From Coriobacteriia bacterium (GTDB taxonomy: Bacteria; Actinomycetota; Coriobacteriia; Coriobacteriales; Eggerthellaceae), in assembly GCA_030526515.1 (NCBI GenBank), contig JAUNCQ010000009.1, positions 1-53,024 on the forward strand: a DNA stretch of 53,024 bases, given 5' to 3'. A program made the translations under genes and the position numbers. This document shows, in pieces, positions 805 through 50,276 of the stretch. Under the pieces are notes generated by a model, which saw only the letters and a list, made by a program, of their open reading frames with translations, made no database searches and had not been told where the DNA came from. Position 1 is the stretch's first letter, and every line of letters starts with the position of its first letter.

Positions 805-902
805 CGCAGGCATCCTTTCGCCCTGATGTAGGGGCGCCTTGGTTTCAAAATGAGGAAATGTTGGCCGAAAACAACCATAAATGGGTAAACTACGGTTAGT
901 TA

Positions 903-924
903 TTCGCATTTTTACCGATGCGAA
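903..924. promoter_or_regulatory. Inverted repeat upstream of the amino-acid importer
   Basis: TTCGCAT at 903-909 is mirrored exactly by ATGCGAA at 918-924 with an 8-nt spacer. It sits 30 nt before the lipoprotein gene and just after a weak promoter-like TAAACT at 896-901. It could be an operator or an RNA hairpin at the 5' end of the transcript. No regulator can be assigned. Confidence 0.4.
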
Positions 925-954
925 GGTATTGGGAAGGAAACAGAGGGGAACATC

Positions 955-1782
955 ATGAAGATTTCCAAGAAGATCCTGGCCGTGGGCTCCTGCGCTGCGC
1001 TGCTGTGCGGTTGCCTGGCCCTGACCGCCTGCGGTGGCGGCAACGCTGACAACGGCGCTCAGAAGCCCGCTGCCAACGACACCCCGAAGGCTGCTGACTA
1101 CAAGCTGCTGACCGAGGGCACCATCACCGTGGCAACCAGCGCCGACTACCCGCCCATGGAGTACATGGACGGCGACGAGATCAAGGGCTTCGACCCGGCT
1201 CTGATGCAGGAGATCGGCGATCGCCTGGGCCTGAAGATCGAGCTGAAGAACCAGGCCTTCGACTCCCTGGTCACCGCTGTTGCCGGCGGCTCCTCCTGTG
1301 ACGTGGCCATCAGCGCCATCACCATCGACGACGAGCGCGCCGAGCAGGTCGACTTCTCCGAGTCTTACTACGATTCCAACCTGGCAATCGTGGTCATGGC
1401 TGACTCCAAGTTCGAGAAGAAGGGCGAAATGAACTCCGACGAGGTCGCCGTGGGCGCCCAGTCCGGTTCCTCCGGCGAGGCTTGGGCCAAGGAGAACCTG
1501 AAGAAGGCCGGCTACACTCCCTACCAGGAGACCCCGGACCTGCTGCAGGCCCTGCGCACCGGCAAGATCGACTGCGCTGTGTACGATGATCCGGTCGCCC
1601 AGGCTCACGTTGCCGGCGAGTACAAGGACATGCGCATCCTTGACGTCATCCCCACCGGCGAGCAGTACGGCATCATCGTCAACAAGGACAACGCCGCTCT
1701 GACCGAGGCCATCAACGGCGCTCTGAAGGAGATCAAGGACGACGGCACCTACGCCAAGCTGGTCAAGAAGTATCTGGCATAG
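955..1782 (+). CDS. Polar amino-acid ABC transporter substrate-binding lipoprotein
   Basis: This is the solute receptor of an amino-acid ABC importer, anchored outside the membrane. The N-terminus (MKISKKILAVGSCAALL) is a Sec signal peptide ending in the lipobox LTAC, with Cys26 the lipidation site, followed by a Gly/Asn-rich linker. The mature part is a PBP type 2 (SBP_bac_3) domain, with TITVATSADYPPMEY at its start and the typical DVAISAITIDDERAEQVDFS segment. At 275 residues it has the usual family length. The ATG follows GGAAGGAAACAGAGGGG. The permease and ATPase genes follow directly, separated by a hairpin terminator that probably lets the receptor be made in excess. The exact amino acid cannot be told from sequence. 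Confidence 0.9.
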   Translation: MKISKKILAVGSCAALLCGCLALTACGGGNADNGAQKPAANDTPKAADYKLLTEGTITVATSADYPPMEYMDGDEIKGFDPALMQEIGDRLGLKIELKNQAFDSLVTAVAGGSSCDVAISAITIDDERAEQVDFSESYYDSNLAIVVMADSKFEKKGEMNSDEVAVGAQSGSSGEAWAKENLKKAGYTPYQETPDLLQALRTGKIDCAVYDDPVAQAHVAGEYKDMRILDVIPTGEQYGIIVNKDNAALTEAINGALKEIKDDGTYAKLVKKYLA

Positions 1783-1806
1783 TCGTAGCCGACACATAGG
1801 CGATTT

Positions 1807-1840
1807 GAAGGACCGTCCATGGGGCGGTCCTTCTTTTTTT
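1807..1840 (+). terminator. Intrinsic terminator or attenuator between receptor and permease genes
   Basis: GAAGGACCG (1807-1815) pairs with CGGTCCTTC (1825-1833), followed by a run of T to 1840. Because the permease and ATPase of the same importer lie downstream without an obvious new promoter, this is probably a partial terminator that sets subunit ratios. Confidence 0.8.
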
Positions 1841-1908
1841 GCGGAAATGGCTTATAATGAGGCGCTCTTTTTATAAGTTTTCTGTGTAGAACAAGGGGAA
1901 TGTGAAAA

Positions 1909-3288
1909 ATGGCTGATTCGCTCAAGGACGTGCTGAAGCGCATGCTCCTAACGGCCCTTTCGCTGTCCTTGGTGATCACGTTCGTGCCCATGCTGGCCGG
2001 CGCGCTCACCCAGGACGTGACGACCGCGAAGGGGAACGAGACCTCCACGGGCAACGTGCTCGGCGGCATGCCGACCCGCGTGACCTGGGAGTCGGTCGTC
2101 GACAAGGGCGAGTCCGTGAAGTCCATCACGGTTCAGTTCCCGGAGGGCTCTGACCTGACCTCGGAGACCACGGCGCGCCTGACGGTGCTCAACGGCGTTG
2201 AGCGTCTTGAGGTGGACGCCGAGCCGGTCATCGACACGGAGGGCGAAAACGTCACCGTTGATTTCGCCCAGCCGCTGGAAGCGGGCCTGCGCGTGCGCAT
2301 TGAGACCTACAACGCCTGCCTGCCCAACGTCAGCGGCGAGGTGACCCTGTCCGGCACCTACACCCGCGACAACGGCGAGGTGGAGCAGCTGCCCGAGTCC
2401 CCGTCCATCGAGGTGACCCAGGCGTCCCTGGCCCAGAAGATCGTGAGCTGGATGGATGAGCAGCCCTTCATCGAGGCATGGAACTCCGTGACCGTCCTGC
2501 GCCTGTTCCTGGAGCCGCAGCTGATCGTGTCCTCCATCCCCACGGTGTTCACCGGCTGGCTGATCTCCCTGGCCCTGGTCCTGGTGGGCTTCCCGCTGGC
2601 CATCCCCATTGGCCTGGCAAGCGCCTTCATGAAGATCAGCCGCTCCCGCGTCATGCACGTCCTGGCGGCCATCTACACCGGCGTGGTCCGCGGCACCCCG
2701 CTGTTCCTGCAGATCTACATTGCCTTCTTCGGCCTGCCGCTGATGGGCATCAACCTGAACGAGTACTTGCTTGCGGTCCTGGTCATGGCCTTCAACTCCG
2801 GCGCCTACATGTGCGAGATCCTGCGCGCCGGCATCCAGTCCATCCCCAAGGGCCAGTTCGAGGCGTCCCGCTCCCTGGGCATGACCCAGGCCCAGACCAT
2901 GTTCAGCGTGATCATCCCGCAGACCATCCGCCGTGTGATCCCGACCATGACCTCCGAGTTCATCCTGCTGTACAAGGACACGTCCCTGCTGGCAGCCGTT
3001 GGCGTCATGGAGCTCATGCTCTACTCCCGCTCCGTCGTGGCGCTTACCGGCAACATGACGCCCTACATCGTGGCGGCGTTCTTCTACCTGATCGTGACCC
3101 TGCCGCTGATCCGCGTGGTCACCATGCTGGAGGACCGCCTTGCCCTTGCCGATAACGGCGGCGGCGCCCCCAAGCCCAAGGCCAAGCGCAAGGGTCTGTT
3201 CGGCGGGGCGAAGAAGAAGGCGGCCGTGGCCGCCGAGCCTGCGGCTGAAGGCCAGTCCGCCGAGGAGAAGGGAGCCGACCGTGACTAG
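1909..3288 (+). CDS. Amino-acid ABC transporter permease with N-terminal extracytoplasmic domain
   Basis: Permease of a polar amino-acid importer (HisM/GlnP family). The C-terminal half (about residues 200-430) has the membrane-spanning BPD_transp_1 domain with the EAA loop [17 protein letters not shown], which docks on the ATPase. The N-terminal half is unusual. A first membrane helix (about residues 10-32) is followed by some 135 residues that look like an exported beta-rich domain ([35 protein letters not shown]), then the amphipathic start of the permease. Ordinary permeases of this family are about 220-280 residues, against 459 here. The C-terminus is a Lys/Ala/Glu-rich tail of about 35 residues. 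The stop overlaps the GTG start of the ATPase gene by 8 nt, implying translational coupling. Confidence 0.88.
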
Positions 3289-4021: not shown

Positions 4022-4059
4022 CTTTCATCAAGGAGCTTTCGCCCTGAAGAGGCTGAGCA

Positions 4060-7896: not shown

Positions 7897-10562
7897 TGGC
7901 ACAGGACAACACGCCTAAGAAGGTTGACTACGACTTCGCCGCGCATGAGAAGCCGATCTTCGACGCCTGGAAGGAAGCTGGCTATTTCCAGCGCACCCCG
8001 GGCTTCGGTGAGCATGCGGGCGAAAGCTACACCATCGTCATTCCGCCGCCGAACATCACCGGCGTGCTGCATATGGGCCATGCCCTGAACGACACCATCC
8101 AGGATGCCTGCATCCGCCGTGCCCGCATGCGCGGCTACCAGACCCGTTGGATCCTGGGTACCGACCATGCCGGCATCGCCACCCAGACCAAGGTGGACAA
8201 GCACCTGCAGGAGCAGGGCATCAACCGCCGCGAGATCGGCCGCGAGAAGTTCATCGAGGCCTGCCAGGAATGGCGCAAGGAGTACGGCACCACCATCGTG
8301 AACCAGATCAGCACCATGGGCTGCTCCTGCGACTACGATGACGAGCAGTTCACCATGAGCCCGGAGTTCTCCAAGGCCGTGCGCAAGGTGTTCGCGGACT
8401 GGTACCACGACGACCTGATCTACCGCGGCAAGCGTATCGTGAACTGGTGCCCCCACTGCACCACCGCCATTGCTGACGACGAGGCCGAGTACGAGGATGA
8501 GGCAGGCCATCTGTGGTACCTGCGCTACCCGCTGACGGAGCCCGTCGACGGGCGCGAGTACCTGATCGTGGCCACCACCCGTCCCGAGACCATGCTCGGC
8601 GACACCGGCGTGGCTGTTTCGCCTCAGGACGAGCGCTACAAGGACCTGGTGGGCAAGACCGTCATGCTCCCCATCGTGAACCGCGAGATTCCCATCTTCA
8701 GCGACTTCTACGTTGACAAGGAGTTCGGCACGGGCTGCGTCAAGACCACCCCGGCCCATGACCCTAACGACTTCGCCATGGGCGAGCGCCATGACCTGCC
8801 CAAGATCAACATCTTCGACGAGACCGCCCATGTGGTGGAGGGATATGGCAAGTTCACCGGCATGAGCCGCGAGGAGTGCCGTGAGGCCGTGGTGGCTGAG
8901 TTCGAGGCCCTGGGTCTGCTGGATCACGTCGAGGACCACGACCACTCCGTCATGCACTGCTACCGCTGCCACAACAAGCTGGAGCCCTGGCTTTCCGAGC
9001 AGTGGTTCGTGGCCGTGGACAAGCTGAAGGTCGCTGCCGCCGAGGCCGTCAAGTCCGGCGAGATCAAGTTCTATCCCGAGCGCTGGTCCCAGGTGTACCT
9101 GGACTGGATGGAGAACCTGAAGGACTGGTGCATCAGCCGTCAGCTGTGGTGGGGTCACCGCATCCCCATGTACTACTGCGACGAGTGCGGTTGGGAAGAT
9201 GCTTCCGTGGAGGGCGTGGACACCTGCCCGAAGTGCGGCGCTGCCACCCGTCAGGACGAAGACGTGCTGGACACCTGGTTCAGCAGCCAGCTGTGGCCCT
9301 TCGCCACCCAGGGCTGGGCTGACGCCGGCATGGAGTCCCCGGACCTGGCAAAGCACTATCCCACCCAGGTGCTGTCCACCGCTCGCGACATCATGGGCCT
9401 GTGGGTCGCCCGCATGGTCATGTCCTCCGAGTACTGCACGGGCCAGATCCCGTTCAAGGACGTCATCATCCACCCGACGGTCATGGCTGCCGACGGCAAG
9501 CCCATGTCCAAGAGCCGTGGCAATGGCGTCGATCCGGTGAAGCTGATGAAGGACTACGGCGCCGACGGCATGCGCTTCGGCCTGCTCATGCAGGTGACCG
9601 GCGCCCAGGCCATGCGCTTCAACGAGAAGAAGCTGGAGAGCAGCCGCAACTTCGCCAACAAGATCCGCAATGCCGCACGCTTCGTGGGCATGAACCTGGA
9701 CGGCTTCGAGCCGGGCGAGCCCGTGCCCTCCACGCCGGCAGACAAGTGGATCTTCAGCCGCCTGGCAAGCCTGGTGGAGCGCCTTGACGCTGCCTACGAG
9801 TCCTATGAGTTCGGCGAGATCACCCGCGAGCTGTATGCGTTCTTCTGGAACGAGTTCTGCGACTGGTACATCGAGTTCAGCAAGAGCCGCCTGGCCTCCG
9901 ACGGTCCCGACCGCCTGGCCTGCCAGCGCAACCTGGTCTTCGTCCTTGACCAGGCACTGCGCCTGCTGCACCCGATCATGCCCTTCGTCACCGAGGAGAT
10001 CTACCAGGAGCTGCCGGTGAAGGAGACCGAGCACCTGATCGTGGCATCCTGGCCCAACGCCCAGGAGCTGGCCAAGTACAAGGATCCCCAGTCCGAGCGC
10101 GCCATCACCCTGGTGACCGAGGCTGTTTCCGCGGTCCGCTCCACCCGTTCCCGCTACGGCATCTCCCCGAAGCAGGGCATTGCCGTTGCCATCAAGGCAT
10201 CCGCGGAGGACGTGGCGCTGATCGACGAGCAGGCCGGCCTGATCGCCTCCATGGCAAACCTGGACTCCCTGGCTGCCTCCGCTGATGCGGAAAAGCCCGC
10301 CGAGTCCGCCGTGGTCCTGGTGGCTGGCATGGAGGTCTACATTGTCCTGTCCGGCCTGGTGGACTTCGACGCCGAGCGCAAGCGCCTGGAAAAGGAGCAG
10401 GCCAAGGTCCAGAAGGACGTGGACAAGTTCAGCAAGAAGCTGTCCAACCCGGGCTTCCTGGCCAAGGCCGCGCCTGAGGTCGTGGAGAAGGACAAGGCCA
10501 AGCTGGCTTCCCTGGAGGAGCTGCTTGAGCGCCTGACCGCTCAGATCGCCGAGCTGGGCTAG
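7896..10562 (+). CDS. valS: Valyl-tRNA synthetase
   Basis: Class I aminoacyl-tRNA synthetase charging tRNA-Val. The HIGH-type motif is in [15 protein letters not shown] (about residues 49-63) and the KMSKS motif in [13 protein letters not shown] (about 534). Between them lies the CP1 editing domain, including the [13 protein letters not shown] editing motif. Two Cys pairs (YRCH, then CDEC and CPKC) form the zinc-knuckle region. The C-terminal 70 residues are a coiled-coil arm. At 888 residues it has the normal length. It is translationally coupled to clpX by a one-base stop/start overlap. Confidence 0.97.
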
Positions 10563-10666: not shown

Positions 10667-11155
10667 ATGAGCGAGCTGCTCGCATCCCTGTGGACTCCGC
10701 AGCTGCAGGGCGCCGTCATGGTGGTCGTCATCATGCTGGTCATCCTTTACGTACTGTCCATTGCCTGGGTGGTCCGCGATGCGCACCTGCGCGGTCAGCA
10801 CTGGCAGGTGTGGGGCATCGTGGCGCTGATCCCGCTGCTGGGCGTCATCGCATACTGTCTGCTCCGTCCGCCGCTGCTGCAGATCGACAAGGACGAGCAG
10901 GAGCTGGAGATTGCCCTGAAGCAGCGCCAGCTCATGAAGTACGGCGAGTGCGCCAACTGCGGCTACCCCGTGGAGTCCGACTTCGTGGTGTGCCCCAGCT
11001 GCCACTCCCGCCTGAAGAACCTGTGCCCGGTGTGCCATAAGGCCCTGGATCCCACGTGGCGCGTGTGCCCCTATTGCGCAACGCAGCTGGTTTCGCCCCG
11101 TCGCCAGCAGGCTCCTGCCGCCAGCCAGACCGCATCTGCCCCGGCTCATCGCTAG
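10667..11155 (+). CDS. Membrane protein with C-terminal double zinc ribbon
   Basis: A 162-residue protein. Residues about 15-37 (VMVVVIMLVILYVLSIAWVV) and 48-66 (VWGIVALIPLLGVIAYCLL) are two membrane helices. The cytosolic C-terminal part has four CxxC-type knuckles (CANC, CPSC, CPVC, CPYC), which is a double zinc ribbon of the DZANK type, then an Ala/Gln-rich tail. No catalytic domain is seen. Its role is unknown; proteins of this layout occur widely in Actinobacteria, and the ribbon may bind nucleic acid or protein partners. It stands alone between a promoter with hairpin and a terminator. Confidence 0.85.
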   Translation: MSELLASLWTPQLQGAVMVVVIMLVILYVLSIAWVVRDAHLRGQHWQVWGIVALIPLLGVIAYCLLRPPLLQIDKDEQELEIALKQRQLMKYGECANCGYPVESDFVVCPSCHSRLKNLCPVCHKALDPTWRVCPYCATQLVSPRRQQAPAASQTASAPAHR

Positions 11156-11248: not shown

Positions 11249-11341
11249 AGGGCGAAATATGCGTCGGGGAGGGAGGGCGTTGGCCAAGACCCTCCGTCAG
11301 GGATGCGTGCAAGCGGGGTTGCCGCTGCTCTAACGGACTCC

Positions 11342-12313
11342 CTATGCCTGCAGGTAGCGCTGCAGGTCGTCCCAGGATGCGGCAGCGGCCTCCCGGCCCT
11401 GGACGTACAGGTCGAAGAGCTTGTCCGGGTCGGACTCCATGCTGGACACCTCAACGGGTTTGGGCGGCATGATGACGAAGATCTCGCCGTTCTGGTGCAT
11501 GAGCTGGCAGGCGCGGCGGGTGCGGTTGTACTCAAGGTAGCGGAAGTCGGCCCGCTCCACGTACAGCGGGTAGTCCGCGTAGCGCTTGCGCATGAGGGGC
11601 ATGAGGCGGTCGGGTTCCTTTTCGTAGGTTTCGTCCTGGGTCAGCACCACTATGTGCTTGGTGGCGCCGGTCTTCAGGGAGTAGACCAGGGGAATGCTGT
11701 CGCAGGTGCCGCCATCCAGCAGCACCTTGCCGTCCACCTGCACCGGCTGGCTGACCAGGGGCATGGAGGAGGTGGCGATCAGGTAGGGCATGTCGTTTCG
11801 GGCATCCCGGAACTCATGGTAGTCCGCTTCGCCGTAGCGCAGGTCGCTGGACACCGCCACCAGCGTGCTGGGGGAGTCGTTGAAGGCCTGGTAGTTGAAG
11901 GGCATGAGTCGGTTGGGGATGTCGTCGAAGGCGAAGGCGCGGTTCAGGGCGTTGCCCGTGGTGGCGAAGCAGCGCATGCTGAAGTAGCGCGGGTCGTCGC
12001 AGAACGTCATGTTCAGCAGGCAGGTGCGCTCCGGCAGGCCGGCCACGTAGGGGTATCCGGCCAGGGCGCCGGCGGATGTGCCAATGACCTTTTGGCACAG
12101 CAGGCCCTGCTCCATGAAGTAGTCCAGCACGCCAGCGGTGAACTGGCTGCGCATGGCGCCGCCCTCCAAGATCAGGTTGGCGGGGGTCACCGGGTGGCCG
12201 GGCTCCCAGACGGATTCCTGCAGGGGCATGAGCGGCTGGTCCTGCTCCGTGGCCTCCTGGGCAGGGGACGGCTCGGCGGGCTCCTGGGTTCGGTTGCGGC
12301 GGAACAACTTCAT
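11342..12313 (-). CDS. Patatin-like phospholipase family protein
   Basis: Predicted cytoplasmic or membrane-associated lipid acyl hydrolase with the Ser-Asp dyad of patatins. The oxyanion-hole segment LILEGGAMRSQF is followed by the nucleophile elbow GTSAGALAGYPY, and the catalytic Asp lies in LLDGGTCDSIPL. I place the start at the ATG whose complement ends at 12313, because AAGGGAG precedes it at good spacing. An upstream in-frame ATG (12352) lacks a ribosome site. The first 30 residues are charged and low complexity (NRTQEPAEPSPAQEATEQ). At 323 residues it resembles the YjjU/RssA-type bacterial patatins. Physiological substrate unknown. Confidence 0.88.
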   Translation of the reverse strand: MKLFRRNRTQEPAEPSPAQEATEQDQPLMPLQESVWEPGHPVTPANLILEGGAMRSQFTAGVLDYFMEQGLLCQKVIGTSAGALAGYPYVAGLPERTCLLNMTFCDDPRYFSMRCFATTGNALNRAFAFDDIPNRLMPFNYQAFNDSPSTLVAVSSDLRYGEADYHEFRDARNDMPYLIATSSMPLVSQPVQVDGKVLLDGGTCDSIPLVYSLKTGATKHIVVLTQDETYEKEPDRLMPLMRKRYADYPLYVERADFRYLEYNRTRRACQLMHQNGEIFVIMPPKPVEVSSMESDPDKLFDLYVQGREAAAASWDDLQRYLQA

Positions 12314-12499
12314 GTGCGCTCCCTTGGTCGGTGGATTTTCTGTTGGGTTCATTATACGGACCGCCTGCGGGCGTGGTGATTTTACACATAGTCGTTACAA
12401 TAGGGGCTGAAAAACAACCGACGGGGGCACCGGAGCGGGTCTTTCGCCCTGATGATTCGCGTGTTTGCGGCTCTGGACAACGCCCCAGGTAAGGAGCAT

Positions 12500-16016: not shown

Positions 16017-16038
16017 ATTCGGGCGAAAGGAGCCTGCC

Positions 16039-18650: not shown

Positions 18651-18798
18651 GACCGTTCCTTTCGTCCTGAATCCTGCGCCCGTCCGTGCGGCGGGCCCCT
18701 GTGACGCCACTTACTTTACGGAGGGCGAAAGGCTCCTAGGTAAACTGCCGGTTGACATTCGACGGAGCTGCCGCGCCGTGCTCGCCAGGGTGCGGCTG

Positions 18799-30945: not shown

Positions 30946-31067
30946 GGGGCGAAGTCCATGGTCGCTTTCGTCCATGGTATTGTAATGAACTCCGCGTCGG
31001 GCCTGTTTGCCCGCGCCACACCGCGAAGCCAGGCGCCCCGTGCGCCCCGACCCCGCAGGAGGCAACC

Positions 31068-32483: not shown

Positions 32484-32586
32484 GGCGAAAACGCCGCAGG
32501 GCAAAGTTGCGCCTCTAGGCCGTCTTGGCCAAGGCTCACGCAGGGCGAGCTGCGGCGAGTGCGGTGACCGTGCAGGGCCCGCCTCG

Positions 32587-34006: not shown

Positions 34007-34235
34007 GGGCCTTCCTTTCGCCCTCTTGCTCTGCGCGGTCAAGCGCGGCAGGGGAGGGGTGCTTGCATTTCCTGGGTTACGCGCCTTCCTGGCCTTGAGT
34101 CTTCCCAGGCCCATAGGCTTGCGGTTGTCCTGCCATGGGCTTTCGTCGGGCTTTCGGTGGGCTTCCCTTGGACTTCCCTTGGACCTACTGTGGATTCGCC
34201 GTGCCGCTAGGCCGTCGTGTCCTTGCACGGTGATT

Positions 34236-37093: not shown

Positions 37094-38695
37094 TTATACC
37101 GTGGGCGAAATCCCCCTGGGGTCGTCGGCTCGGTAGTGGGACCCCAGGCTTTCGGCGCGCGTCAGGGCGGCGTCTAGCATGAGTCGGGCGGTTTCCAGGC
37201 GCAGCTGGGTGCGGCGGGTGAGCGCGGCGTCGGCGGGGCAGGCTGCGGGCTGGCGGGTGGCGGCAAGCTGGTCCTGGAGGGCGGCGACCTGGCGCAGGCC
37301 ATGGCTCAGCCCGCCGCCAGTGCGGACGATGCCGCAGCTCGCGTCCATGACGGCCTGCAAGTCCTCTTCGACCTGAGAGGCGCAGGGGGAGCTGGTGGCG
37401 CTCCAGCCAGGCAGGAGCTTGCTGGCGCTGGCGGGCTGGCTTGCGTCCGCGGCGAACCGGGCCGCGGCTTCTCCGGCGCGCAGGCCGAAGGTCAGGCCGT
37501 TGGCGCTGGACAGGCCGCCTATGCGGTCGGCGCCGTGCATGCCGCCGGTGCTTTCGCCCGCTGCGTAGATGCCCTCAACGCCCGTGAAGCCCTGGGAATC
37601 GATGCTCACGCCTCCGTTGCTGGCATGGGCGTAGTGGGCGATTCGAAGGGGGGCGTCGGGGCTCACGCCCAGGTCATGCTCCAGCCAGTCAAAGTAGGTT
37701 CGGGCGAACTCGGGCAGGTCGTCGGCCAGCCGCGGCATCAGGGGCAGGCCCTGGGGACCGGCCCGGTGCACGGCCAGGTCCAGGGCTGCGGACTCAAGCC
37801 GGCAGGTGAAGGGCCCGTAGGTGCTTCGCTGGTCCAGCAGACGCGTTGCCGCATCGGCACCGCCCAGCTCCCGGACGGCCTCCGAGGGCAGCTCCATGAA
37901 GCGGAAGGCCTTCTCGTTGAACACCACGTTTTGCACCGGGCTGACCAGGCCGGGCATGAACTGCAGGAACTCCAGGTTCACCAGGCGGCAGCCGGCCTGG
38001 GCGGCCAGGGCATGGACGGTGGCCCGGCAGTCCGCGCGGGTCAGGCGGCGGGGGAACAGGGAGCTGGCGCCGCCTGCGCAGAGGATCACCGCCTGGAAGG
38101 CCATGGACCGCAGCGTCCCGGAGTCGGCGTCGAAGAAGACGGCCGTGCCCGCGTTGGCCAGGTCGGGCGCGCTTAGGTCCAGCAGCTCCCAGCGCTCGCG
38201 AACGCGCACCTGGTGCTGCCGCAGCTGGTTGCCCACCGCCTTGACGAAGGGCTCCCGCCGGATGCCGCGCCAGCGCCGATGCTTGCGGTCGAAGCAGGGC
38301 ACGTACTCCCGCTGGCCCGCTGCCTGGGCGCTGGGCTCCATGAGCTCGCAGCCCCAGCTCTCCAACGTGCGGATGGCGGGCTCGATGCCCTGGACGAAGC
38401 TGCGTACCAGTTGAGGATCGGCGGCGTTTTCGCCCACCTGCACGATGGTCTGGGCCAGGTCCTCCTGGTCGTCGGGGCCGTCGGGGGCGATCAGGCCCAG
38501 GCCCCAGGTGCCCTTGAAGAAGCTGGAGCCGGAAAACAGCGGCCCGGCGCTGGCCAGCAGCACGTCCTGGCCGCGGCCCAGGACCTGGGCGGCGCGGACG
38601 GCGGCCACGGTTCCGGCAATGCCCGAGCCAACCACCAGCACACGGCAGCTGTTGTCATCGTCAGCGGTCTTCGGCATGGGGGCGAAAGTGCTCAC
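37094..38695 (-). CDS. FAD-dependent oxidoreductase, SdhA/NadB (fumarate reductase) family
   Basis: FAD-binding VLVVGSGIAGTVAAVRAA (about residues 19-36) and a second FAD segment GIYAAGESTGGMHGADRIGGLSSANGLTFG at the C-terminal part are characteristic. HYAHASNGGVSID holds the substrate-site position that is HxTxGG in fumarate reductases and aspartate oxidase. The helical C-terminal domain ends with SHYRADDPRG, as in SdhA/NadB. It lacks heme-binding motifs and a signal peptide. GTG start at 38695 follows GGAGGAGG. Substrate unknown; no partner Fe-S subunit or nadA/nadC is adjacent, so classical succinate dehydrogenase or NAD synthesis is not indicated. Confidence 0.8.
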   Translation of the reverse strand: MSTFAPMPKTADDDNSCRVLVVGSGIAGTVAAVRAAQVLGRGQDVLLASAGPLFSGSSFFKGTWGLGLIAPDGPDDQEDLAQTIVQVGENAADPQLVRSFVQGIEPAIRTLESWGCELMEPSAQAAGQREYVPCFDRKHRRWRGIRREPFVKAVGNQLRQHQVRVRERWELLDLSAPDLANAGTAVFFDADSGTLRSMAFQAVILCAGGASSLFPRRLTRADCRATVHALAAQAGCRLVNLEFLQFMPGLVSPVQNVVFNEKAFRFMELPSEAVRELGGADAATRLLDQRSTYGPFTCRLESAALDLAVHRAGPQGLPLMPRLADDLPEFARTYFDWLEHDLGVSPDAPLRIAHYAHASNGGVSIDSQGFTGVEGIYAAGESTGGMHGADRIGGLSSANGLTFGLRAGEAAARFAADASQPASASKLLPGWSATSSPCASQVEEDLQAVMDASCGIVRTGGGLSHGLRQVAALQDQLAATRQPAACPADAALTRRTQLRLETARLMLDAALTRAESLGSHYRADDPRGISPTV

Positions 38696-40541: not shown

Positions 40542-40584
40542 TAGGAGGGCGAGGCCATAGGCATGGTTTCGCCCTCCTAATGCT
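40542..40584 (+). terminator. Attenuating terminator between receptor and permease genes
   Basis: TAGGAGGGCGA (40542-40552) pairs with TCGCCCTCCTA (40569-40579), then ATGCTTTT. The 3' arm includes a TTTCGCCC copy (40567). It lies 31 nt before the permease GTG. Confidence 0.8.
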
Positions 40585-40614: not shown

Positions 40615-41562
40615 GTGAACAACCTTATCCGACTGATCGGCAGGCGCCTGATTGCGCTTCCCATCATGGTCATAGGCGTCACCATCCTCGTGTTCTTCAT
40701 CACGTCTCTTTCGCCTATCGACCAGGCCTATTCGGTTCTGGGCGAAAACGCCACCCCGGCACAGGTGGAGCAGTACCGTGAGGAACACGGCTTGAATGAT
40801 CCCATCGTGGTTCAGTACTTCACGTACATGGGCAACCTGTGTCAGGGCGACATGGGTGTGTACGGTGCTACCAGGACTCCTGTAGCAGAAAAGATCGCAC
40901 AGGCGCTTCCCGTCACCCTGGAGCTGACGTTCCTGGGCCTGATCGTGGCGCTCATCTTCTCGACGATCTTCGGCGTGGTATCGGCGGTCTACCGTGACAA
41001 GTGGCCCGACCAGCTGCTGCGCATACTTTCGATCGTTTCGCTGGCCATGCCTTCGTTCTGGCTGGCGGTCCTGCTGATCTTGGCTGTTTCAGGCGCCCTG
41101 CCCGCATCTGGTCAGCTGCCTGACTTCTTCGAGAACCCGACGGGGCACCTGCTCCGCATGGCTCTGCCCACCATCGCCCTTGCGGTGCCGGTGATCGGCC
41201 AGATGACCCGCGTCATCCGCACCTCCATGGTCGAGGAGCTGGACAAGGACTACGTCCGCACCGCCATGGGCTTCGGCATCCCGTACCATACGGTCATCGC
41301 CCGCAACGTGCTGCGCAACGCCCTCATCAGCCCGGTGACGGTCCTGGGCCTGCGCATTGCCCACCTGATCGGCGGCGCTGTGGTCATCGAGGTCATCTTC
41401 AACCTGCCTGGCATGGGCATGGCCATCCTCGGCGGCATCCTGGCCAACTACATCACCCTGATCCAGGGCGTCGTGCTGGTCGTTGCCGTGGCCTTCATCA
41501 TCATCAACATCATCGTTGACATGCTGTACATCCTGATCGACCCCCGAATCAGGACGGTGTAG
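40615..41562 (+). CDS. ABC transporter permease, DppB type
   Basis: First membrane subunit of the importer. The opening LIRLIGRRLIALPIMVIGVTILVF and the REEHGLNDPIVVQYFTYM segment are typical of DppB/OppB. Six membrane helices with the ATPase-docking loop EELDKDYVRTAMGFGIPYHT follow. 315 residues. GTG start follows AAAGGGGGAGG. The fusion gene starts 2 nt after its stop. Confidence 0.93.
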   Translation: MNNLIRLIGRRLIALPIMVIGVTILVFFITSLSPIDQAYSVLGENATPAQVEQYREEHGLNDPIVVQYFTYMGNLCQGDMGVYGATRTPVAEKIAQALPVTLELTFLGLIVALIFSTIFGVVSAVYRDKWPDQLLRILSIVSLAMPSFWLAVLLILAVSGALPASGQLPDFFENPTGHLLRMALPTIALAVPVIGQMTRVIRTSMVEELDKDYVRTAMGFGIPYHTVIARNVLRNALISPVTVLGLRIAHLIGGAVVIEVIFNLPGMGMAILGGILANYITLIQGVVLVVAVAFIIINIIVDMLYILIDPRIRTV

Positions 41563-41564: not shown

Positions 41565-43595
41565 ATGGTGAAGCTTAGAGAGAACACTACCCAGAAGCTG
41601 GAGTCCAACGCAGGCAAGAAGATCAGCTTCAAGGCCCTGGCCAACATGAGCTGGGGCAGCCGCATCTCCCTGGTCGTGCTGATCCTGGTGGCCCTCATGG
41701 CCCTCACGGCGCAGTTCATCGCCCCGTACGATCCGCTGGAGATCTTCACCGCCCGCACGGCTCCCAACGGCGAGTTCCTGTTCGGTACCGACGACAAGGG
41801 CCGCGACGTGCTGTCCCGCGTCATGTACGGTGCAGGCTACTCCCTTATGATCGGCCTTGGCTCCACGGCCTTCGCCCTGATCTCCGGCGCCATCATCGGC
41901 GCCATCGCCGCAGTGACCCGCACCTGGATCAGCGAGGTCATCATGCGCATCATGGACGTCGTCATGTCCTTCCCGGGCATTGCCCTGGCAGCTACCGTCG
42001 TGGTGGTCATGGGCGCGTCCGTCCCGTCGCTGATCGTGGCAATCGGCATCCTGTACGCACCGCAGGTGGCCCGCGTGGTTCGCGCGAACATCATGAGCGA
42101 GTACGGACAGGACTACGTCCGCGCTGCCATGGTCAACGGCGCCAAGGCCCCGTGGATCCTGTGGAAGCACGTCATGCGCAACTGCCTGGCACCCATCCTG
42201 GTGTTCACGGTGGTCTGCGTTGCCGATGCGATCGTGTTCGAGGCCTCCCTGGCCTTCATCAGCGCGGGCATTCCCGAGCCGACCCCGACCTGGGGCAACA
42301 TCCTGGCTGACGCCCGCGCCGGCGTGCTTGCCGGTCGTTGGTGGCAGGCACTGTACCCGGGCCTGATGATCATGATCACGGTCCTGTGCCTGAACATCCT
42401 GTCCGAAGGCGTCACCGACGCCATGGCCGCTGCCCCCGGCGCTCCCGTTGAGGCTGGCGACGACAAGCTGGACTCCGACCGCGAGGCCGACCGCCTGGTC
42501 GCCGACCCGAAGCTGGCCTACGCCGCTCAGGCCGAGTCCCTGAAGGCCCGCCTGGCCGCCCTGGCCGAGGTGGAGGCAAAGCGCACCGACCGCTTCCAGT
42601 CCCGTACCGACGTGCCGCCCATCCTGGAGGTCAAGGACCTGTGCATCAAGTTCCCCCGCCATGGTGACGTGAACGTGGTCGACCACCTGAACTTCGTGGT
42701 CCGTCCGCGCCAGACCATGGGCCTGGTGGGCGAATCCGGCTGCGGCAAGTCCATCACCTCCCTGGCAATCATGGGCCTGCTGGACGAAAAGGCCCAGATC
42801 TCCGGTCAGATCCTGTACAACGGCCAGAACCTGCTGGATCTGGACTCCAAGGCCATGAACGAGCTCCGCGGCAAGGAAATCGCCATGGTGTACCAGGACG
42901 CCCTCTCGTCCTTGAACCCGTCCATGCTCATCCGCTCCCAGTTCAAGCAGCTGACCAAGCGCGGCGGCACCCGCACCGCAGAGGAGCTGCTGGAGCTGGT
43001 CGGCCTGGATCCGTCCCGTGTCCTGGGCTCCTATCCGCATGAGCTCTCTGGCGGCCAGCGTCAGCGCGTGCTCATCGCCATGGCCCTGACCCGCGACCCC
43101 AAGATCATCATCGCCGACGAGCCCACCACCGCTCTGGACGTGACGGTTCAGAAGCAGGTCGTGGACCTGCTGAACCGCCTCCAGCACGAGCTGGGCTTCG
43201 CCATGGTGTTCGTCAGCCATGACCTGGCACTGGTTGCCGAGGTGGCGAACTCCATCACCGTCATGTACGCCGGCCAGGTGGTCGAGCAGGGTCCGGTGAC
43301 CGAGCTCATGACCAACCCCATCCACGAGTACACCCGTGGCCTGCTGGGTTCCGTCCTCTCCATCGAAGAGGGTGGCGACCGTCTGCACCAGGTTCCCGGT
43401 TCCGTGCCGTCCCCGAAGGACTTCCCCGAGGGCGACCGCTTCCGTCCGCGCTCCAGCCATCCGGACAAGATCTCCAACGTCCGTCCCATGCTGAAGCAGC
43501 TGAAGGGCACCGACCACTACTACGCCGAGCTGCCTGACAGCGAGCTGACCCGCATCGGCCTTGAGCCGCTGGTTCCGAAGGAGGGGAGGGAATAA
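41565..43595 (+). CDS. Fused ABC transporter permease (DppC) and ATP-binding protein (DppD)
   Basis: Residues about 1-290 are a DppC permease: NPAEFLFGTDDKGRD-type GTDDKGRDVLSRVMYGAGYSL, then docking loop QDYVRAAMVNGAKAPWIL. Residues about 290-345 are a charged linker (DDKLDSDREADRL). Residues about 346-650 are a full ATPase: Walker A GESGCGKS, signature LSGGQRQR, Walker B IIIADEPTTALD, H-loop FVSHDLAL. The usual C-terminal oligopeptide motif has Cys residues (RCPxAxxxC type); here the matching segment RFRPRSSHPDKISNVRP has none. The same permease-ATPase fusion is known in some actinobacterial SAT-type importers. 676 residues. Coupled to the next gene by a one-base overlap. Confidence 0.92.
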   Translation: MVKLRENTTQKLESNAGKKISFKALANMSWGSRISLVVLILVALMALTAQFIAPYDPLEIFTARTAPNGEFLFGTDDKGRDVLSRVMYGAGYSLMIGLGSTAFALISGAIIGAIAAVTRTWISEVIMRIMDVVMSFPGIALAATVVVVMGASVPSLIVAIGILYAPQVARVVRANIMSEYGQDYVRAAMVNGAKAPWILWKHVMRNCLAPILVFTVVCVADAIVFEASLAFISAGIPEPTPTWGNILADARAGVLAGRWWQALYPGLMIMITVLCLNILSEGVTDAMAAAPGAPVEAGDDKLDSDREADRLVADPKLAYAAQAESLKARLAALAEVEAKRTDRFQSRTDVPPILEVKDLCIKFPRHGDVNVVDHLNFVVRPRQTMGLVGESGCGKSITSLAIMGLLDEKAQISGQILYNGQNLLDLDSKAMNELRGKEIAMVYQDALSSLNPSMLIRSQFKQLTKRGGTRTAEELLELVGLDPSRVLGSYPHELSGGQRQRVLIAMALTRDPKIIIADEPTTALDVTVQKQVVDLLNRLQHELGFAMVFVSHDLALVAEVANSITVMYAGQVVEQGPVTELMTNPIHEYTRGLLGSVLSIEEGGDRLHQVPGSVPSPKDFPEGDRFRPRSSHPDKISNVRPMLKQLKGTDHYYAELPDSELTRIGLEPLVPKEGRE

Positions 43596-44548: not shown

Positions 44549-44586
44549 GTCGGGGCAACCAAGGACCTGACGCCTTGAAGCAACAG

Positions 44587-44624
44587 GGCGAAAAAGAAGG
44601 GCGACTCCATTGGAGTCGCCCTTC
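44587..44624 (-). terminator. Intrinsic terminator for the leftward nanA-kinase operon
   Basis: GAAGGGCGACTCC (44596-44608) and GGAGTCGCCCTTC (44612-44624) form a perfect 13-bp stem. On the minus strand it is followed by TTTTTCGCCC, so it terminates transcription from the right; the T-tract itself contains a dispersed octamer copy (44586). It may also stop the converging importer operon. A further copy is at 44668. Confidence 0.85.
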
Positions 44625-44685
44625 GTGCGTTCAGGAGCCGTGCGTTTGAAGACGCTGCGCTCGGGTCTTTCGCCCGCTTGAAGCC

Positions 44686-45642
44686 TTAGTGCTCGGCCAG
44701 GGAGTCCAGCAGGTGCTCGGCGGCGCCGATCAGCGGCGCGTCGCCGCCCAGGGTGGCGGCTACGATGGGGGTTTCCCGCATGGGCGGCATGGCCTGGGAT
44801 GCGTAGCCTTCGTTCAGGGCCTGGCGCCACAGGGGACCGGCGTTCACCACGGTGCCGGTGAGCACGATGGCGGCCGGGTCGAGGATGTTGGCCCAGGAGC
44901 CCATGGCCTGGCCCAGGGCAAAGCCCGCGGCCTTCAGGGCGTCGACGGCTTTCTGCTCGCCCTGCTCTGCGCGTTCGCTGACCTGGGCGCCGGTGACGGC
45001 GGGGTCGTAGTCGGCATTGGTCAGGGACGCGCCCTGGTACAGGCAGCCGATGCCGGTGCCGCTGGTCACGGCCTCCACGTGGTCCTGCCCGCCGCAGGCA
45101 CAGGTGAAGCCAGATGCTGCCGGGTGGATGGTGTGGCCGATGTGGCCGGCTGCGCCGTGAGCGCCGCGAAGCACCTTGCCGTCCACCACGTAGGCGCCGC
45201 CCATGCCGGTGCCGGCAGCCACGAACAGGCAGCTGGAAAGGCCCTTGGCCCCGCCCCAGCGGGTTTCGCCCAATGCATGGCCGTGTACGTCGCCCATGGC
45301 GGCAGCGGGAACGCCCAGAGCCTGGGAGGTGGCGGCCGCCAGGGGCTGGCCCGTCCAGCCGGGCATGATCTCGTTGGCGTAGAGCACGCTGCCGTCGTCC
45401 GGGGAAATGCAGCCTGCGGCGGCAATGCCCACGCCCACCGGCTGCTCGTCGGAGGCGGCGGCCATTTCCTTGGCCACGGAGATGACGCGCGCCAGGACGT
45501 TTTCGCCCCCTTCCTGGGCATTGGTGGGGACGGCGGTGCGGGCCACAATCACGGGGGCCTGGCCGTCGGACTCGTAGCGGACCAGGGCGCCGGCGATCTT
45601 GGTGCCGCCCAGGTCGATGGCGACCACGTTGCAAGGCTTCAT
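44686..45642 (-). CDS. nanK: ROK-family sugar kinase, probable N-acetylmannosamine kinase
   Basis: ATP-dependent sugar kinase. VAIDLGGTKIAGALV is the ATP phosphate motif, and GTGMGGAYVVDGKVLRGAHG with HIGHTIHPAASGFTCACGG is the ROK signature. The third zinc ligand is changed: the family motif CxCGxxGC reads CACGGQDH, with His where the last Cys should be. The gene lies downstream of nanA on the same strand, which points to ManNAc as substrate; glucose is a fallback. Start at the ATG whose complement ends at 45642, preceded by GAAAGGA. 318 residues, normal length. Confidence 0.82.
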   Translation of the reverse strand: MKPCNVVAIDLGGTKIAGALVRYESDGQAPVIVARTAVPTNAQEGGENVLARVISVAKEMAAASDEQPVGVGIAAAGCISPDDGSVLYANEIMPGWTGQPLAAATSQALGVPAAAMGDVHGHALGETRWGGAKGLSSCLFVAAGTGMGGAYVVDGKVLRGAHGAAGHIGHTIHPAASGFTCACGGQDHVEAVTSGTGIGCLYQGASLTNADYDPAVTGAQVSERAEQGEQKAVDALKAAGFALGQAMGSWANILDPAAIVLTGTVVNAGPLWRQALNEGYASQAMPPMRETPIVAATLGGDAPLIGAAEHLLDSLAEH

Positions 45643-46826: not shown

Positions 46827-46843
46827 TAGAATCGGGGGCGAAA
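46827..46843 (+). promoter_or_regulatory. Probable nanE promoter region
   Basis: TAGAAT at 46827-46832 with a weak TTTTCC at 46804-46809 (17-nt spacing) precedes nanE by about 43 nt. A GGGCGAAA copy (46836-46843) would lie at the transcription start. Also in the nanA-nanE region are GGGCCC repeats and ACTGCTAACAGT near 46712, without a clear operator. Confidence 0.4.
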
Positions 46844-46874: not shown

Positions 46875-47552
46875 ATGATCCATCCCCTCATCGAGCAGCT
46901 CCGCGGCAAGCTCATCGTGAGCTGCCAGGCCTACGTGGGCGAGCCCATGCGCCATCCGGAGACCATGGCCCAGGTGGCCCTTGCCGCCGAGCAGGGCGGC
47001 GCCGCGGCCATCCGCTGCCAGGGCCTGGCTGACATCTCGGCCATCAAGGGCCAGGTGGAGGTGCCCGTGATCGGCCTGTGGAAGGAAGGCCATGAGGGCG
47101 TCTACATCACCCCGACCTTCCGCCACGCCCGCGCCTGCAGCCTGGCCGGCGCTGACGTGGTGGCCCTGGACGCCACCGACCGTCCGCGTCCCAACGGGGA
47201 AACCTTCGAGTCCATCGTGTCCGCCTGCAAGGCGGAGGGCATCCTGACCATGGCTGACTGCTCCTGCATCGAGGACATCCAGCGCGGCCTGGACGCCGGC
47301 TGCGACATCGTGTCCACCACCATGGCAGGCTACGTCCCGGGCGGTCGCGCAAAGACCGAGGGCCCGGACCTGGAGCTGCTGCGTGAGGCCGTGGCCATTG
47401 CGGGCGAAACCCCCGTCATCTGCGAGGGCCGTCTGCATACTCCCGCCCAGGCTGCCGCTGCCATGGAGGCCGGCGCCTTCGCCTGCGTGGTGGGCACCGC
47501 CATCACGCACCCCACTTCCATCACCCGTTGGTTCGTGGACGCGGTGGAGTAG
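46875..47552 (+). CDS. nanE: N-acetylmannosamine-6-phosphate 2-epimerase
   Basis: Converts ManNAc-6-P to GlcNAc-6-P. GKLIVSCQAYVGEPMRHP is the NanE start signature, AIRCQGLADI and PVIGLWKEGHEGVYITPT follow, and the catalytic Lys and Glu lie in GLWKEG and VICEGRLHTPAQA. TIM barrel of 225 residues, full length. ATG follows TTGGAGGAACATC. Its stop lies only 6 nt from the end of converging nagA, with no terminator between them. Confidence 0.95.
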   Translation: MIHPLIEQLRGKLIVSCQAYVGEPMRHPETMAQVALAAEQGGAAAIRCQGLADISAIKGQVEVPVIGLWKEGHEGVYITPTFRHARACSLAGADVVALDATDRPRPNGETFESIVSACKAEGILTMADCSCIEDIQRGLDAGCDIVSTTMAGYVPGGRAKTEGPDLELLREAVAIAGETPVICEGRLHTPAQAAAAMEAGAFACVVGTAITHPTSITRWFVDAVE

Positions 47553-47558: not shown

Positions 47559-48680
47559 CTACAGCGGGGTGCCCCGCAGGATGACCTTGGTGACGGAGGC
47601 GTCATCGTCCAGCAGGATGCAGTCCGCGATCCTGCCCGGGGCGATGGCGCCTCTTTCGTCCTGAATGCCCAGGGCGCGCGCGGGGTTGCAGGTGGCGGCT
47701 CGCAGGGCGTGCTCCAGGGGAATGCCCATGTCCCGCACGGCCACGCCCAGGCACAGGGCAAGGTTGGTGTTGCTGCCGGCGAGGGTGCCGTCGTGCAGCG
47801 TGGCGCGGTTGCCTCGCACGGTCACGGGCTGGCCGCCCAGGGAGTACTCGCCGTCGTCAAGGCCGGCGGCCTCCATGGTGTCGCTGATCAGGATCATGCG
47901 CTCGGGGCCGAACAGGGTGAAGGCCAGGCGCACCATGGCCGGATGGATGTGGACGCCGTCGCAGATGATCTCCGGCGTCACGTCGTCGCGTTCCGCCGCG
48001 GCGGCAATGGGGCCGGGGTTGCGATGGTGCAGGCCCGGCATGGCGTTGTACAGGTGCGTCATGTGGCGGGCGCCCGCCTGGAACGCGGCCGCTGCCTGGT
48101 CGTAGTCGGCGCAGGTGTGGGCCAGCGATATGCGCACGTCGCTTGCGGTGCGCTCGATGAACTCCAGGGCGCCGGGCTCTTCGGGGGCAATGTCCACCAG
48201 CTTGATCAGGTTGCCGCTGCGCTGCTGCAGACGGGACAGCATGCCCTCGTCGGCTCCCTGGACGTACAGGGGGTTCTGGGCTCCCACCTTGGAGGGCGAA
48301 ATATAGGGTCCCTCCATGTTGATGCCCACCAGGGCCGCCTCGGTCGGGCCGGGCTCGTAGGCCGCTGCGGCGTCCATGATGCGGCCGAGCACGTCCTCGG
48401 GGAAGGTCATGGTGGCCGGGCACATGGCGGTCACGCCCTGGGACGCCTGGTAGGCGCCTATGGCGCGGATGGACTCGACGGTGCCGTCGCAGAAGTCGCG
48501 GCCCACGCAGCCGTGGAAGTGCAGGTCGACCAGGCCCGGGGCCACCACCTGGCCGGCGGCGTCGACCACCTGGCCGTCGTCCACGTAGTCATCGGGGCTG
48601 ACGAAGCGGCCGTCCCGGATGAGCACGTCCTGGTTGGTGAATCCTTCGCCGTCGAACACGCGGCCGTTGATGATCTTCAT
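47559..48680 (-). CDS. nagA: N-acetylglucosamine-6-phosphate deacetylase
   Basis: Removes acetate from GlcNAc-6-P to give glucosamine-6-P. LVDLHFHGCVGRDFCDG holds the metal-side HxH region. Glu and His ligands are in NMEGPYISPSKVGAQNP and ISLAHTCADYD; HLYNAMPGLHHRNPG binds substrate. The catalytic Asp is in LISDTMEAAG. 373 residues, typical. Start at the ATG whose complement ends at 48680, preceded by AAGGAG. It lies downstream of nagB behind a terminator-like hairpin. Confidence 0.95.
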   Translation of the reverse strand: MKIINGRVFDGEGFTNQDVLIRDGRFVSPDDYVDDGQVVDAAGQVVAPGLVDLHFHGCVGRDFCDGTVESIRAIGAYQASQGVTAMCPATMTFPEDVLGRIMDAAAAYEPGPTEAALVGINMEGPYISPSKVGAQNPLYVQGADEGMLSRLQQRSGNLIKLVDIAPEEPGALEFIERTASDVRISLAHTCADYDQAAAAFQAGARHMTHLYNAMPGLHHRNPGPIAAAAERDDVTPEIICDGVHIHPAMVRLAFTLFGPERMILISDTMEAAGLDDGEYSLGGQPVTVRGNRATLHDGTLAGSNTNLALCLGVAVRDMGIPLEHALRAATCNPARALGIQDERGAIAPGRIADCILLDDDASVTKVILRGTPL

Positions 48681-49485: not shown

Positions 49486-49531
49486 GGAAGCTCCCTTTCG
49501 CACGGAAAAATTTGTTGCGTATGTGCAGGGG

Positions 49532-49558
49532 ATTATACCGAAGTTCGCAGGCTGTCAG
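49532..49558 (-). promoter_or_regulatory. Probable nagB promoter
   Basis: On the minus strand, TATAAT (complement of 49532-49537) is preceded by CTGACA (complement of 49553-49558) at 15 nt. The spacing is short but both boxes are good. It lies about 47 nt from the nagB start. Confidence 0.5.
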
Positions 49559-49663
49559 CCCCGCAGGTCGTCTTGCGGAGGGTCCTGGTCGGGACGGGGG
49601 GCGCGGCTGCGGAGGCGTGTGGGCGGAATGTGGAGAAAATAGGAAACGCCCGGAACCGTGGTG

Positions 49664-49692
49664 TTGGCAAACCTTGACCTATGTGTTATAAA
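49664..49692 (+). promoter_or_regulatory. Sigma-70-type promoter of the rimP-nusA-rnpM-infB operon
   Basis: TTGGCA (49664-49669) and TATAAA (49687-49692) at 17-nt spacing, 116 nt before rimP. The leader then contains a terminator at 49751-49779. The rest of the 323-nt nagB-rimP interval (49559-49663) shows no recognisable element. Confidence 0.7.
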
Positions 49693-49750
49693 TGTACTCA
49701 CATACGCGACTGCGTGCAGGTCCGTATGCAGCAACATACTTTCGACATTC

Positions 49751-49779
49751 AGAAAGTGGGCGTGTCCCGCTTTCTTTTT
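49751..49779 (+). terminator. Early intrinsic terminator in the rimP-nusA leader
   Basis: AGAAAGTGGG (49751-49760) pairs with CCCGCTTTCT (49766-49775, one G-U), followed by TTTT. It lies between the promoter at 49664-49692 and rimP, so operon expression needs read-through, which suggests feedback through NusA or another elongation factor. Confidence 0.75.
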
Positions 49780-49808
49780 ATGTAGGGCAGAAAACGAGGG
49801 GAGGAACC

Positions 49809-50276
49809 GTGCTGACAGGACGAGAGCAGAAGCTCCTTGACCTGCTTGCCGCCCAGGCTGAGCAGAAGGAGGTCGAAATCGTCACCGTCGAGGTGGTGGG
49901 CTCCAAGAAGGCTCCCACGGTGCGTGTCTACATCGATACTCCGGAAGGCGTCAGCTTCGACCAGCTGGCCGCCGCCCAGGTGTGGATCAACGAGCTCATG
50001 GACCAGGAGGACCCGTTCCCGGGCGCCTATACGCTGGAGGTGTCGTCCCCGGGCATCGACCGCCCGCTGCGCACCGCCGAGCATTTCGCCCGCTTCGCCG
50101 GCCAGGAGGCCGTGGTGAAGCTGGTCGAGCCGATCGAGGGCCGCAGCTCCTACACCGGCGTCATACAGGACGTCAAGGACCAGGACGTGGTCCTGCAGGT
50201 GGGCGAAGACCAGGTCGTGCTGCCCCTGGGCGCCATGAAGCGCGCCCGCCTGAAGGGAACCATCAGCTTCAAGTAG
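49809..50276 (+). CDS. rimP: Ribosome maturation factor RimP
   Basis: Assists 30S subunit assembly. VRVYIDTPEGVSFDQLA and the signature YTLEVSSPGIDRPLRTAEHFARF are diagnostic, with the C-terminal SH3-like domain from about residue 90. GTG start at 49809 follows GAGGGGAGG. 155 residues, normal length. nusA follows after 96 nt, which contain a 10-nt direct repeat GGCCGTGACG (50313 and 50348). Confidence 0.95.
   Translation: MLTGREQKLLDLLAAQAEQKEVEIVTVEVVGSKKAPTVRVYIDTPEGVSFDQLAAAQVWINELMDQEDPFPGAYTLEVSSPGIDRPLRTAEHFARFAGQEAVVKLVEPIEGRSSYTGVIQDVKDQDVVLQVGEDQVVLPLGAMKRARLKGTISFK

Follow-up and report, generated by a model that had tools for sequence, protein, structure and literature searches.

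GGRCGAAA, a dispersed octamer with the profile of a DNA-uptake sequence in a member of the Eggerthellaceae

Background

What kind of sequence is an asymmetric octamer that turns up dozens of times in a single contig, on both strands, inside genes as well as between them? The question is raised by a 53,024 bp stretch of DNA from a Coriobacteriia bacterium of the family Eggerthellaceae (assembly GCA_030526515.1, contig JAUNCQ010000009.1, positions 1 to 53,024), here called the window. It forms contig 47 in a 93-contig draft genome (G000) that totals 2,416,968 bases. The word is GGRCGAAA (TTTCGYCC on the opposite strand) and has two forms, GGGCGAAA (reverse complement TTTCGCCC) and GGACGAAA. An initial annotation of the window had noticed the first form and read it as a word recognised by a lineage-specific DNA-binding or uptake protein. 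Our analysis suggests that GGRCGAAA is probably a DNA-uptake sequence that evolved independently in a monoderm actinobacterium.

Results

GGGCGAAA and its reverse complement occur 38 times in the window, every copy at the position given in the initial annotation and in the same balance of orientations (18 GGGCGAAA and 20 TTTCGCCC on the plus strand). One hundred dinucleotide shuffles give 2.08 copies on average and at most 7, in line with the earlier expectation of about two, and in an order-2 Markov comparison GGGCGAAA is the top-scoring 8-mer of the window. The second form, GGACGAAA, has 16 copies there. Our recount places 14 GGGCGAAA copies fully in intergenic DNA (5,662 bp in total), one across a gene end (32483) and 23 in coding sequence; the previous figure was 15 intergenic copies in about 4.8 kb.

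The excess extends to the whole genome, where GGRCGAAA occurs 1,391 + 1,403 = 2,794 times in the two orientations, or once per 865 bp, which is 24 times the count of its reversed control (117). The corresponding numbers are 883 + 895 against 40 for GGGCGAAA and 386 + 436 against 16 for GGGCGAAAG. Further counts were made on a sample of 757 kb (31% of the genome), which consists of several stretches plus the window. Its 605 genes were called with a simple home-made caller, on which all coding, intergenic, pair and alignment counts rest; two stretches that read as N (L015 and L016) were excluded from gene-based counts, and the list of densest loci comprises six named loci in addition to the 30 densest with a length of 3 kb or more. 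This sample holds 871 copies of GGRCGAAA, whereas an order-3 Markov model predicts 66.5. A genome-wide count near Markov expectation, which had been named as the outcome that would speak against the initial observation, is thus not what we found; the observation is confirmed and was, in fact, understated.

The two strands carry the word equally often. We counted 427 and 444 copies, and in the 43 stretches that hold five or more sites the distribution is that of chance (chi-square 27.3, P = 0.97). The most uneven single stretch has P = 0.11, the whole-genome counts of GGGCGAAAG (386 versus 436) give P = 0.09, and site orientation is unrelated to GC skew in the 19 stretches compared, so that the lack of polarity seen in the window holds for the larger sample. 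Coding strands carry both orientations of GGGCGAAA (75 and 99), which disfavors a signal in single-stranded RNA.

Intergenic DNA is preferred: it carries 351 copies (3.21 per kb) and coding sequence 516 (0.80 per kb), with 4 at edges, compared with 12 intergenic and 29 coding copies of the reversed control. The enrichment is strong in both compartments. There are 102 intergenic copies of GGGCGAAA where 5.1 are expected, and 174 coding copies where 100 within-gene synonymous shuffles give a mean of about 20 and a maximum of 29; for coding GGACGAAA the numbers are 105, about 11 and 20. Three frames (Gly-Glu 91, Phe-Ala 41, Ser-Pro 34) account for 166 of the 174 coding copies. The earlier suggestion that Phe-Ala and Gly-Glu codon pairs contribute is thus correct as to the frames, but, as far as such a shuffle can tell, does not explain the excess, and an enrichment confined to coding regions and due to codon-pair use, the other outcome named beforehand as adverse, was not observed. 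Spacing between sites is close to exponential (mean 850 bp, coefficient of variation 1.03, 415 gaps). Between tandem genes, 65 of 78 sites lie in the first three fifths of the intergenic region, toward the 3' end of the upstream gene.

The core of the word is narrow. The 44 words that differ from GGRCGAAA at one position (GGTCGAAA is an example) total 1,182 copies in the sample, against 1,152 expected under the order-3 model. Those with the mismatch outside position 8 even fall short of expectation (711 versus 845), and those with a mismatch at position 8 exceed it (471 versus 307), chiefly owing to GGGCGAAG (221 versus 85). A 499 kb subset gives the same picture for single changes of GGGCGAAA: replacement of G3 by A, which yields the second form, is enriched 9.2-fold, G or T at the last position 2.6- and 2.1-fold, and all other changes 0.3- to 1.5-fold. 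The consensus is therefore strong above background, with perfect copies in excess and one-mismatch words in total at expectation, and only the last position is partly tolerant of G. Outside the core, no position exceeds 0.44 bits in 152 intergenic copies. Weak preferences exist for C at the first and sixth base before TTTCGYCC, for a pyrimidine at the first base after it and for A or T at the third. The initial annotation had intergenic copies extend to CTTTCGCCCTGAW; this describes a preference, not a fixed extension, and we rejected an extended motif of 12 to 13 bp because the flank preferences are so weak.

Copies also come in inverted pairs. Within 60 bp of each other, 52 convergent pairs were found in the sample, whereas 300 simulations gave 13.8 on average and never more than 25. 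We folded five pairs of our own choice from the 25 listed, together with a hairpin in the window. Three of the five form strong hairpins adjoining gene ends (z of -5.3 to -7.6). The window hairpin (28781..28808), already described in the initial annotation, consists of two inverted near-copies (GGGCGAAG) and is weaker (z = -2.1; 3 of 200 shuffles fold equally well). The excess of inverted pairs and its link to putative terminators resemble what is seen in uptake sequences.

The signal is largely confined to this genome. We compared GGRCGAAA with its reversed control in 138 Eggerthellaceae genomes from 48 genera: against 24-fold in the source genome, the only genus-mate in the set (G396) has 824 versus 225 copies (3.7-fold), and the other genomes lie between about 0.4- and 2.3-fold, the highest being G646. 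GGGCGAAAG was searched in 396 genomes of the class and 246 of the phylum (21 in both; 621 distinct genomes, the source genome included). The source genome alone stands out (822 versus 16); all others have at most 97 copies. The lineage specificity proposed before is thus borne out, with a strong signal in one member of the family and a weak one in its genus-mate. No comparable word was found in 20-kb samples from 15 family genomes (16 stretches, and three more below 4 kb; the short contigs L055, L057 and L061 excluded), from which sparser words could escape. The genus-mate is enriched for both forms (71 versus 14 expected and 48 versus 13), also in coding sequence compared with synonymous shuffles (42 versus 11 and 34 versus 8), and has one inverted pair where 0.84 are expected.

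An alignment of the two genus members (28 best BLAST blocks, each 250 bp or longer, about 47 kb, 79% identity) covers 45 distinct sites of the source genome, of which 9 are intact in the genus-mate, 31 differ by substitutions only and 5 are gapped. The gaps comprise 1 to 3 bases, and none of the five removes the whole word. The intact share of 20% is not significantly lower than the 28% found for other words (P = 0.20, calculated with the uncorrected 9/48). In the reverse comparison, which includes one stretch counted twice (L149 within L004), 9 of 24 sites are intact and 4 gapped. Since aligned sites differ mainly by substitutions and no gap takes out the word, copies appear to be made or lost by substitution and not inserted. 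The same kind of test had the same outcome for the Haemophilus uptake signal sequence (USS), according to the relevant part of PMC1626085.

Genes for competence and type IV pili are present. ComEC was found in 29 of 31 genomes searched, both genus members included; in the source genome comEA and comEC lie in line, and both members have dprA. The genes for PilB, PilT and PilC form an operon on contig 70 of the source genome, which also encodes pilins and a pilin-like protein of 2,196 residues. Judging from position and sequence, neighboring genes are candidates for PilM/N/O-like proteins and for a prepilin peptidase, the latter without an NCBIfam match. The PilB query matches Paraeggerthella, Gordonibacter and Eggerthella sinensis at 76–77%. 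Apart from this operon, contig 76 has a PilT/PilC cluster (L074:7643-12626) with no PilB among its called genes. This cluster may be an ancestral competence pilus, and a further gene pair is a candidate Tad-type system. In the genus-mate we found no match to PilB and no PilT or PilC of the contig-70 type, absences that carry little weight in a draft of about 200 contigs (98% complete, contamination 8). The idea that it lacks type IV pili altogether was dropped, as it has a PilT of the contig-76 type (92% identical); only about 1 kb of sequence follows this pilT before its contig breaks off at 12,158, and the matching PilC could lie beyond that point. Because relatives with both kinds of pilus genes are without the word, the presence of pili is not a sufficient explanation; a receptor specific to the lineage could be one. 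Comparing the pilus proteins with those of relatives singled out no receptor, and the ComP family was absent from the matches listed in 20 protein scans (some proteins scanned twice), in which ComP was not a query.

Some features of these genes deserve mention in their own right. The 2,196-residue protein (G000:C70:25181-31771, corresponding to L072:10181-16771), encoded within the pilus operon, has a type IV pilin-like N-terminus and only partial matches, of 26–36% identity, in the relatives' loci compared. The contig-76 cluster encodes a PilT-like ATPase, a PilC-like protein, small pilin-like proteins, a DUF4860 protein and a transglutaminase-like lipoprotein, and occurs whole or in part in all nine loci of relatives that were compared (L150-L156, L158 and L159). 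Four type IV pilin genes lie outside the pilus clusters, on three contigs (L075, L076 and L077); their products closely resemble one another at the N-terminus and apparently differ in the C-terminal part.

The individual copies in the window are as follows. Intergenic GGGCGAAA lies on the plus strand at 11250..11257, 16021..16028, 18723..18730, 24320..24327, 24450..24457, 44586..44593 and 46836..46843, and on the minus strand at 816..823, 4037..4044, 12442..12449, 28861..28868, 34016..34023, 40567..40574 and 44668..44675. The contacts with putative terminators, ribosome sites and a stop codon that had been noted earlier hold on reading the sequence, the terminators without folding: a T-rich tract precedes 11250 and a terminator-like T-tract stands immediately before 24320, 40567 is a candidate 3' arm of a terminator-like hairpin and 44586 precedes a hairpin-forming repeat; 16021 overlaps the Shine-Dalgarno-like AAAGGAG, 34016 the similar AAAGGA of a minus-strand gene, and the plus-strand copy at 32483..32490 a gene end. 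Coding copies are found on the plus strand at 1422..1429, 2241..2248, 8018..8025, 15428..15435, 20465..20472, 37103..37110 (in the 3' end of a minus-strand gene), 38680..38687, 40740..40747, 47402..47409 and 48294..48301, and on the minus strand at 2262..2269 (21 bp from the copy at 2241, with which it forms an inverted pair), 11091..11098, 15577..15584, 16638..16645, 26231..26238, 27830..27837, 31580..31587, 35343..35350, 37552..37559, 38428..38435, 45264..45271, 45501..45508 and 50084..50091. GGACGAAA occupies 14134..14141, 16866..16873, 18944..18951, 21991..21998, 22607..22614, 28448..28455, 33443..33450 and 42782..42789 on the plus strand and 11629..11636, 14232..14239, 18660..18667 (intergenic), 21482..21489, 24424..24431 (intergenic), 30966..30973, 36776..36783 and 47654..47661 on the minus strand. 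The near-copies reported before at about 18657, about 47652 and 23079 all exist, the first two being the GGACGAAA copies at 18660 and 47654.

The longest site-free gap in the sample, 10.8 kb, is a ribosomal-protein cluster (L010; genes named from their sequences). The second, 8.6 kb (L012:11440-20000, reaching the end of the stretch), holds unidentified, partly surface-like genes and is possibly a recent acquisition. Among the nine longest gaps are further ribosomal-protein or translation clusters but also metabolic genes. Site-poor stretches match genes that are likely highly expressed, namely L010 and positions 4036-8017 of the window (read as tig-clpP-clpX); taken alone, the window gap is no longer than chance permits. 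Only two phage-integrase-family matches were found in the whole 2.4 Mb genome; there may be few integrating elements, or they may have been lost during assembly or binning. Another word, CATTGCC, is in excess in the coding sample, though on the sense strand alone (165 copies, compared with 34 after synonymous shuffling; antisense 22 and 16). It is enriched in the genus-mate too (124 versus 39) and probably reflects a codon-context effect.

Discussion

A narrow core, strand balance, a distribution limited by tolerance, inverted pairs, origin by substitution, restriction to a clade and the presence of competence genes together form the profile of known uptake sequences. We know of no other kind of sequence with this whole profile. 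For the earlier interpretation, this means that its profile and its lineage specificity hold, and the uptake function stays a matter of inference. We propose that a surface DNA receptor of this genus, a pilin or tip protein on a type IV filament, would bind DNA that contains GGRCGAAA, whichever way the word points. Retraction of the pilus would follow, a single strand would enter by way of ComEA and ComEC, and DprA and the recombination machinery would insert it. If tagged fragments were preferred, sequences that mutate into the tag, are released and are re-acquired by kin would spread by biased transfer, so that the tag would build up where constraint permits, i.e. in intergenic DNA, at terminators and in permissive codon frames.

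Among other iterated words, HIP1 (highly iterated palindrome 1) of cyanobacteria is likewise a massively repeated octamer that includes coding DNA, but it is palindromic and GGRCGAAA is not. The DNA uptake sequence (DUS) of Neisseriaceae (GCCGTCTGAA and dialects, receptor ComP) shares with GGRCGAAA a high density and type IV pilus genes; the sequences are unrelated (GCCGTCTGAA has 3 copies in the 757 kb, other dialects not counted), and no ComP-like family appeared among the proteins scanned. Inverted pairs of DUS, too, are linked to terminators, as described in part of PMC3630211. There are further parallels with the USS of Pasteurellaceae (AAGTGCGGT and ACAAGCGGT), which, according to the relevant passages of PMC1626085, has an asymmetric core of 8–9 bp and a high density on both strands, occurs in coding and intergenic DNA, shows a strong consensus and arises by mutation instead of insertion. 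The same source names the very strong consensus as a puzzling attribute common to USS and DUS, and describes Haemophilus ducreyi as having a weak USS along with damaged competence genes, which may be compared with the weak signal of the genus-mate, in whose draft PilB found no match. GGRCGAAA differs from the USS in sequence (AAGTGCGGT has 3 copies and ACAAGCGGT none in the 757 kb), in its host, a monoderm actinobacterium, and its confinement to one genus among those searched, in its weakly preferred flanks, and in two further respects taken up below.

Several observations weigh against an uptake sequence. The strong signal is seen in one genome only. Raw one-mismatch copies (1,182) outnumber perfect ones (871), unlike USS and DUS as far as PMC1626085 treats them; the strong consensus becomes visible only once background is subtracted, and even then G is tolerated at position 8. 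This raw comparison has little force, since background alone predicts 1,152 mismatched words for an 8-mer in GC-rich DNA. Positions along genes show no bias (quintiles are flat), compared with the bias toward gene ends reported for Pasteurellaceae in the pertinent part of PMC2346458. Gaps occur at aligned sites a little more often than at other 8-mers of similar GC content (3 of 38 versus 3.9% in coding, 2 of 7 versus 14% in intergenic sequence). Divergent pairs exceed expectation as well (24 versus 13.8), though inside the simulated maximum of 26, and two of the five folded pairs are not clearly above shuffles, 12 and 76 of 200 of which fold as well. The machinery genes have no predictive value for the word, since some relatives that lack it possess ComEC and pilus clusters of both kinds. 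The small pilus-cluster proteins scanned gave no receptor-type Pfam family and no ComP-, FimT- or ComN-like receptor; by isoelectric point and Pfam there was no basic, ComP-like pilin candidate either, the pilin-like proteins being mostly acidic. Finally, it is from the profile that we infer function, be it DNA binding, preferential uptake, which protein acts as the receptor, or the role of biased transfer in driving the spread.

It is possible that the word serves inside the cell. A narrow 8-mer with weak flank preferences is the trace expected of an abundant nucleoid or regulatory protein without a role in uptake, and the lean of 65 out of 78 tandem intergenic sites to the upstream gene's 3' end would fit such a protein. 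However, regulatory consensus sequences are usually relaxed, while mismatch words off position 8 have no excess here, and 516 of the 871 sampled copies are coding, which leaves this explanation a small chance. A signal for recombination or chromosome handling seems quite unlikely, whether as a Chi site recognised by AddAB or as a polar signal of the FtsK-orienting (KOPS) or architecture-imparting (AIMS) type. Chi sites of RecBCD or AddAB are also short, asymmetric, over-represented words, and AddA- and AddB-like genes, named from sequence starts and not by family search, are located near the pilT/pilC cluster. But strands are balanced overall and in 43 of 43 stretches (lowest P = 0.11) and there is no relation to GC skew, which led us to reject polar signals; an excess of inverted pairs and a four-fold intergenic preference would be unexpected, and other genera of the family do without the word, though one might expect AddAB specificity to be conserved. 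We consider it decidedly improbable that GGRCGAAA is a methyltransferase or restriction site, or that self-recognition reads a modification instead of the bare sequence. An asymmetric site with one R/Y position does resemble those of type IIG/IIL enzymes, and in Campylobacter uptake is known to depend on methylation; however, the MmeI_Mtase family was found in neither of the two genus members (the one methyltransferase family searched), and no restriction site is known to us to be enriched about 20-fold on both strands. These three explanations retain some weight.

Two others have very little. Convergent pairs are in excess and some form hairpins, as would be expected of a small mobile repeat, akin to miniature inverted-repeat transposable elements (MITE) or repetitive extragenic palindromes (REP), or of a terminator family spread by copying. 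Yet the flanks of the window copies are unrelated, the 52 convergent and 24 divergent pairs are a minority of the 871 copies, and no gap in the genus-mate removes a whole word, so that the alignment and the flanks largely refute this highly improbable possibility. A by-product of codon-pair use or base composition has next to no probability: coding copies do use GGC-GAA, TTC-GCC and TCG-CCC, but the synonymous shuffles (about 20 copies versus 174) and the intergenic excess (102 versus 5.1) refute it.

Conclusions

Taking GGRCGAAA as an uptake sequence, we also lean, with slightly less assurance, toward a broader interpretation. It would represent a further independent origin of sequence-specific uptake of self-DNA and the first in a monoderm phylum, having arisen de novo within one genus of the Eggerthellaceae, where a type IV filament would have gained a new receptor. 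One species would have the system in full, and it would be eroding or still incomplete in the genus-mate, in whose draft no PilB was found. To our knowledge, uptake sequences are established only in Neisseriaceae and Pasteurellaceae, both of which have outer membranes. Among the papers searched we found none linking uptake sequences to Coriobacteriia or Eggerthella, nor one linking natural transformation and type IV pili to Eggerthella. According to the relevant part of a 2019 review (PMC6370729), no DNA receptor had been identified for com pili. If our interpretation is true, an outer membrane would not be required for self-specific uptake, and the word would offer a route to a receptor through which a monoderm type IV filament binds DNA. 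With a strong signal in one species and a weak one in the other, this would be an evolutionarily young system in which the start or the decay of uptake tags can be followed, and GGGCGAAA added to transforming DNA could aid the genetics of gut Eggerthellaceae.

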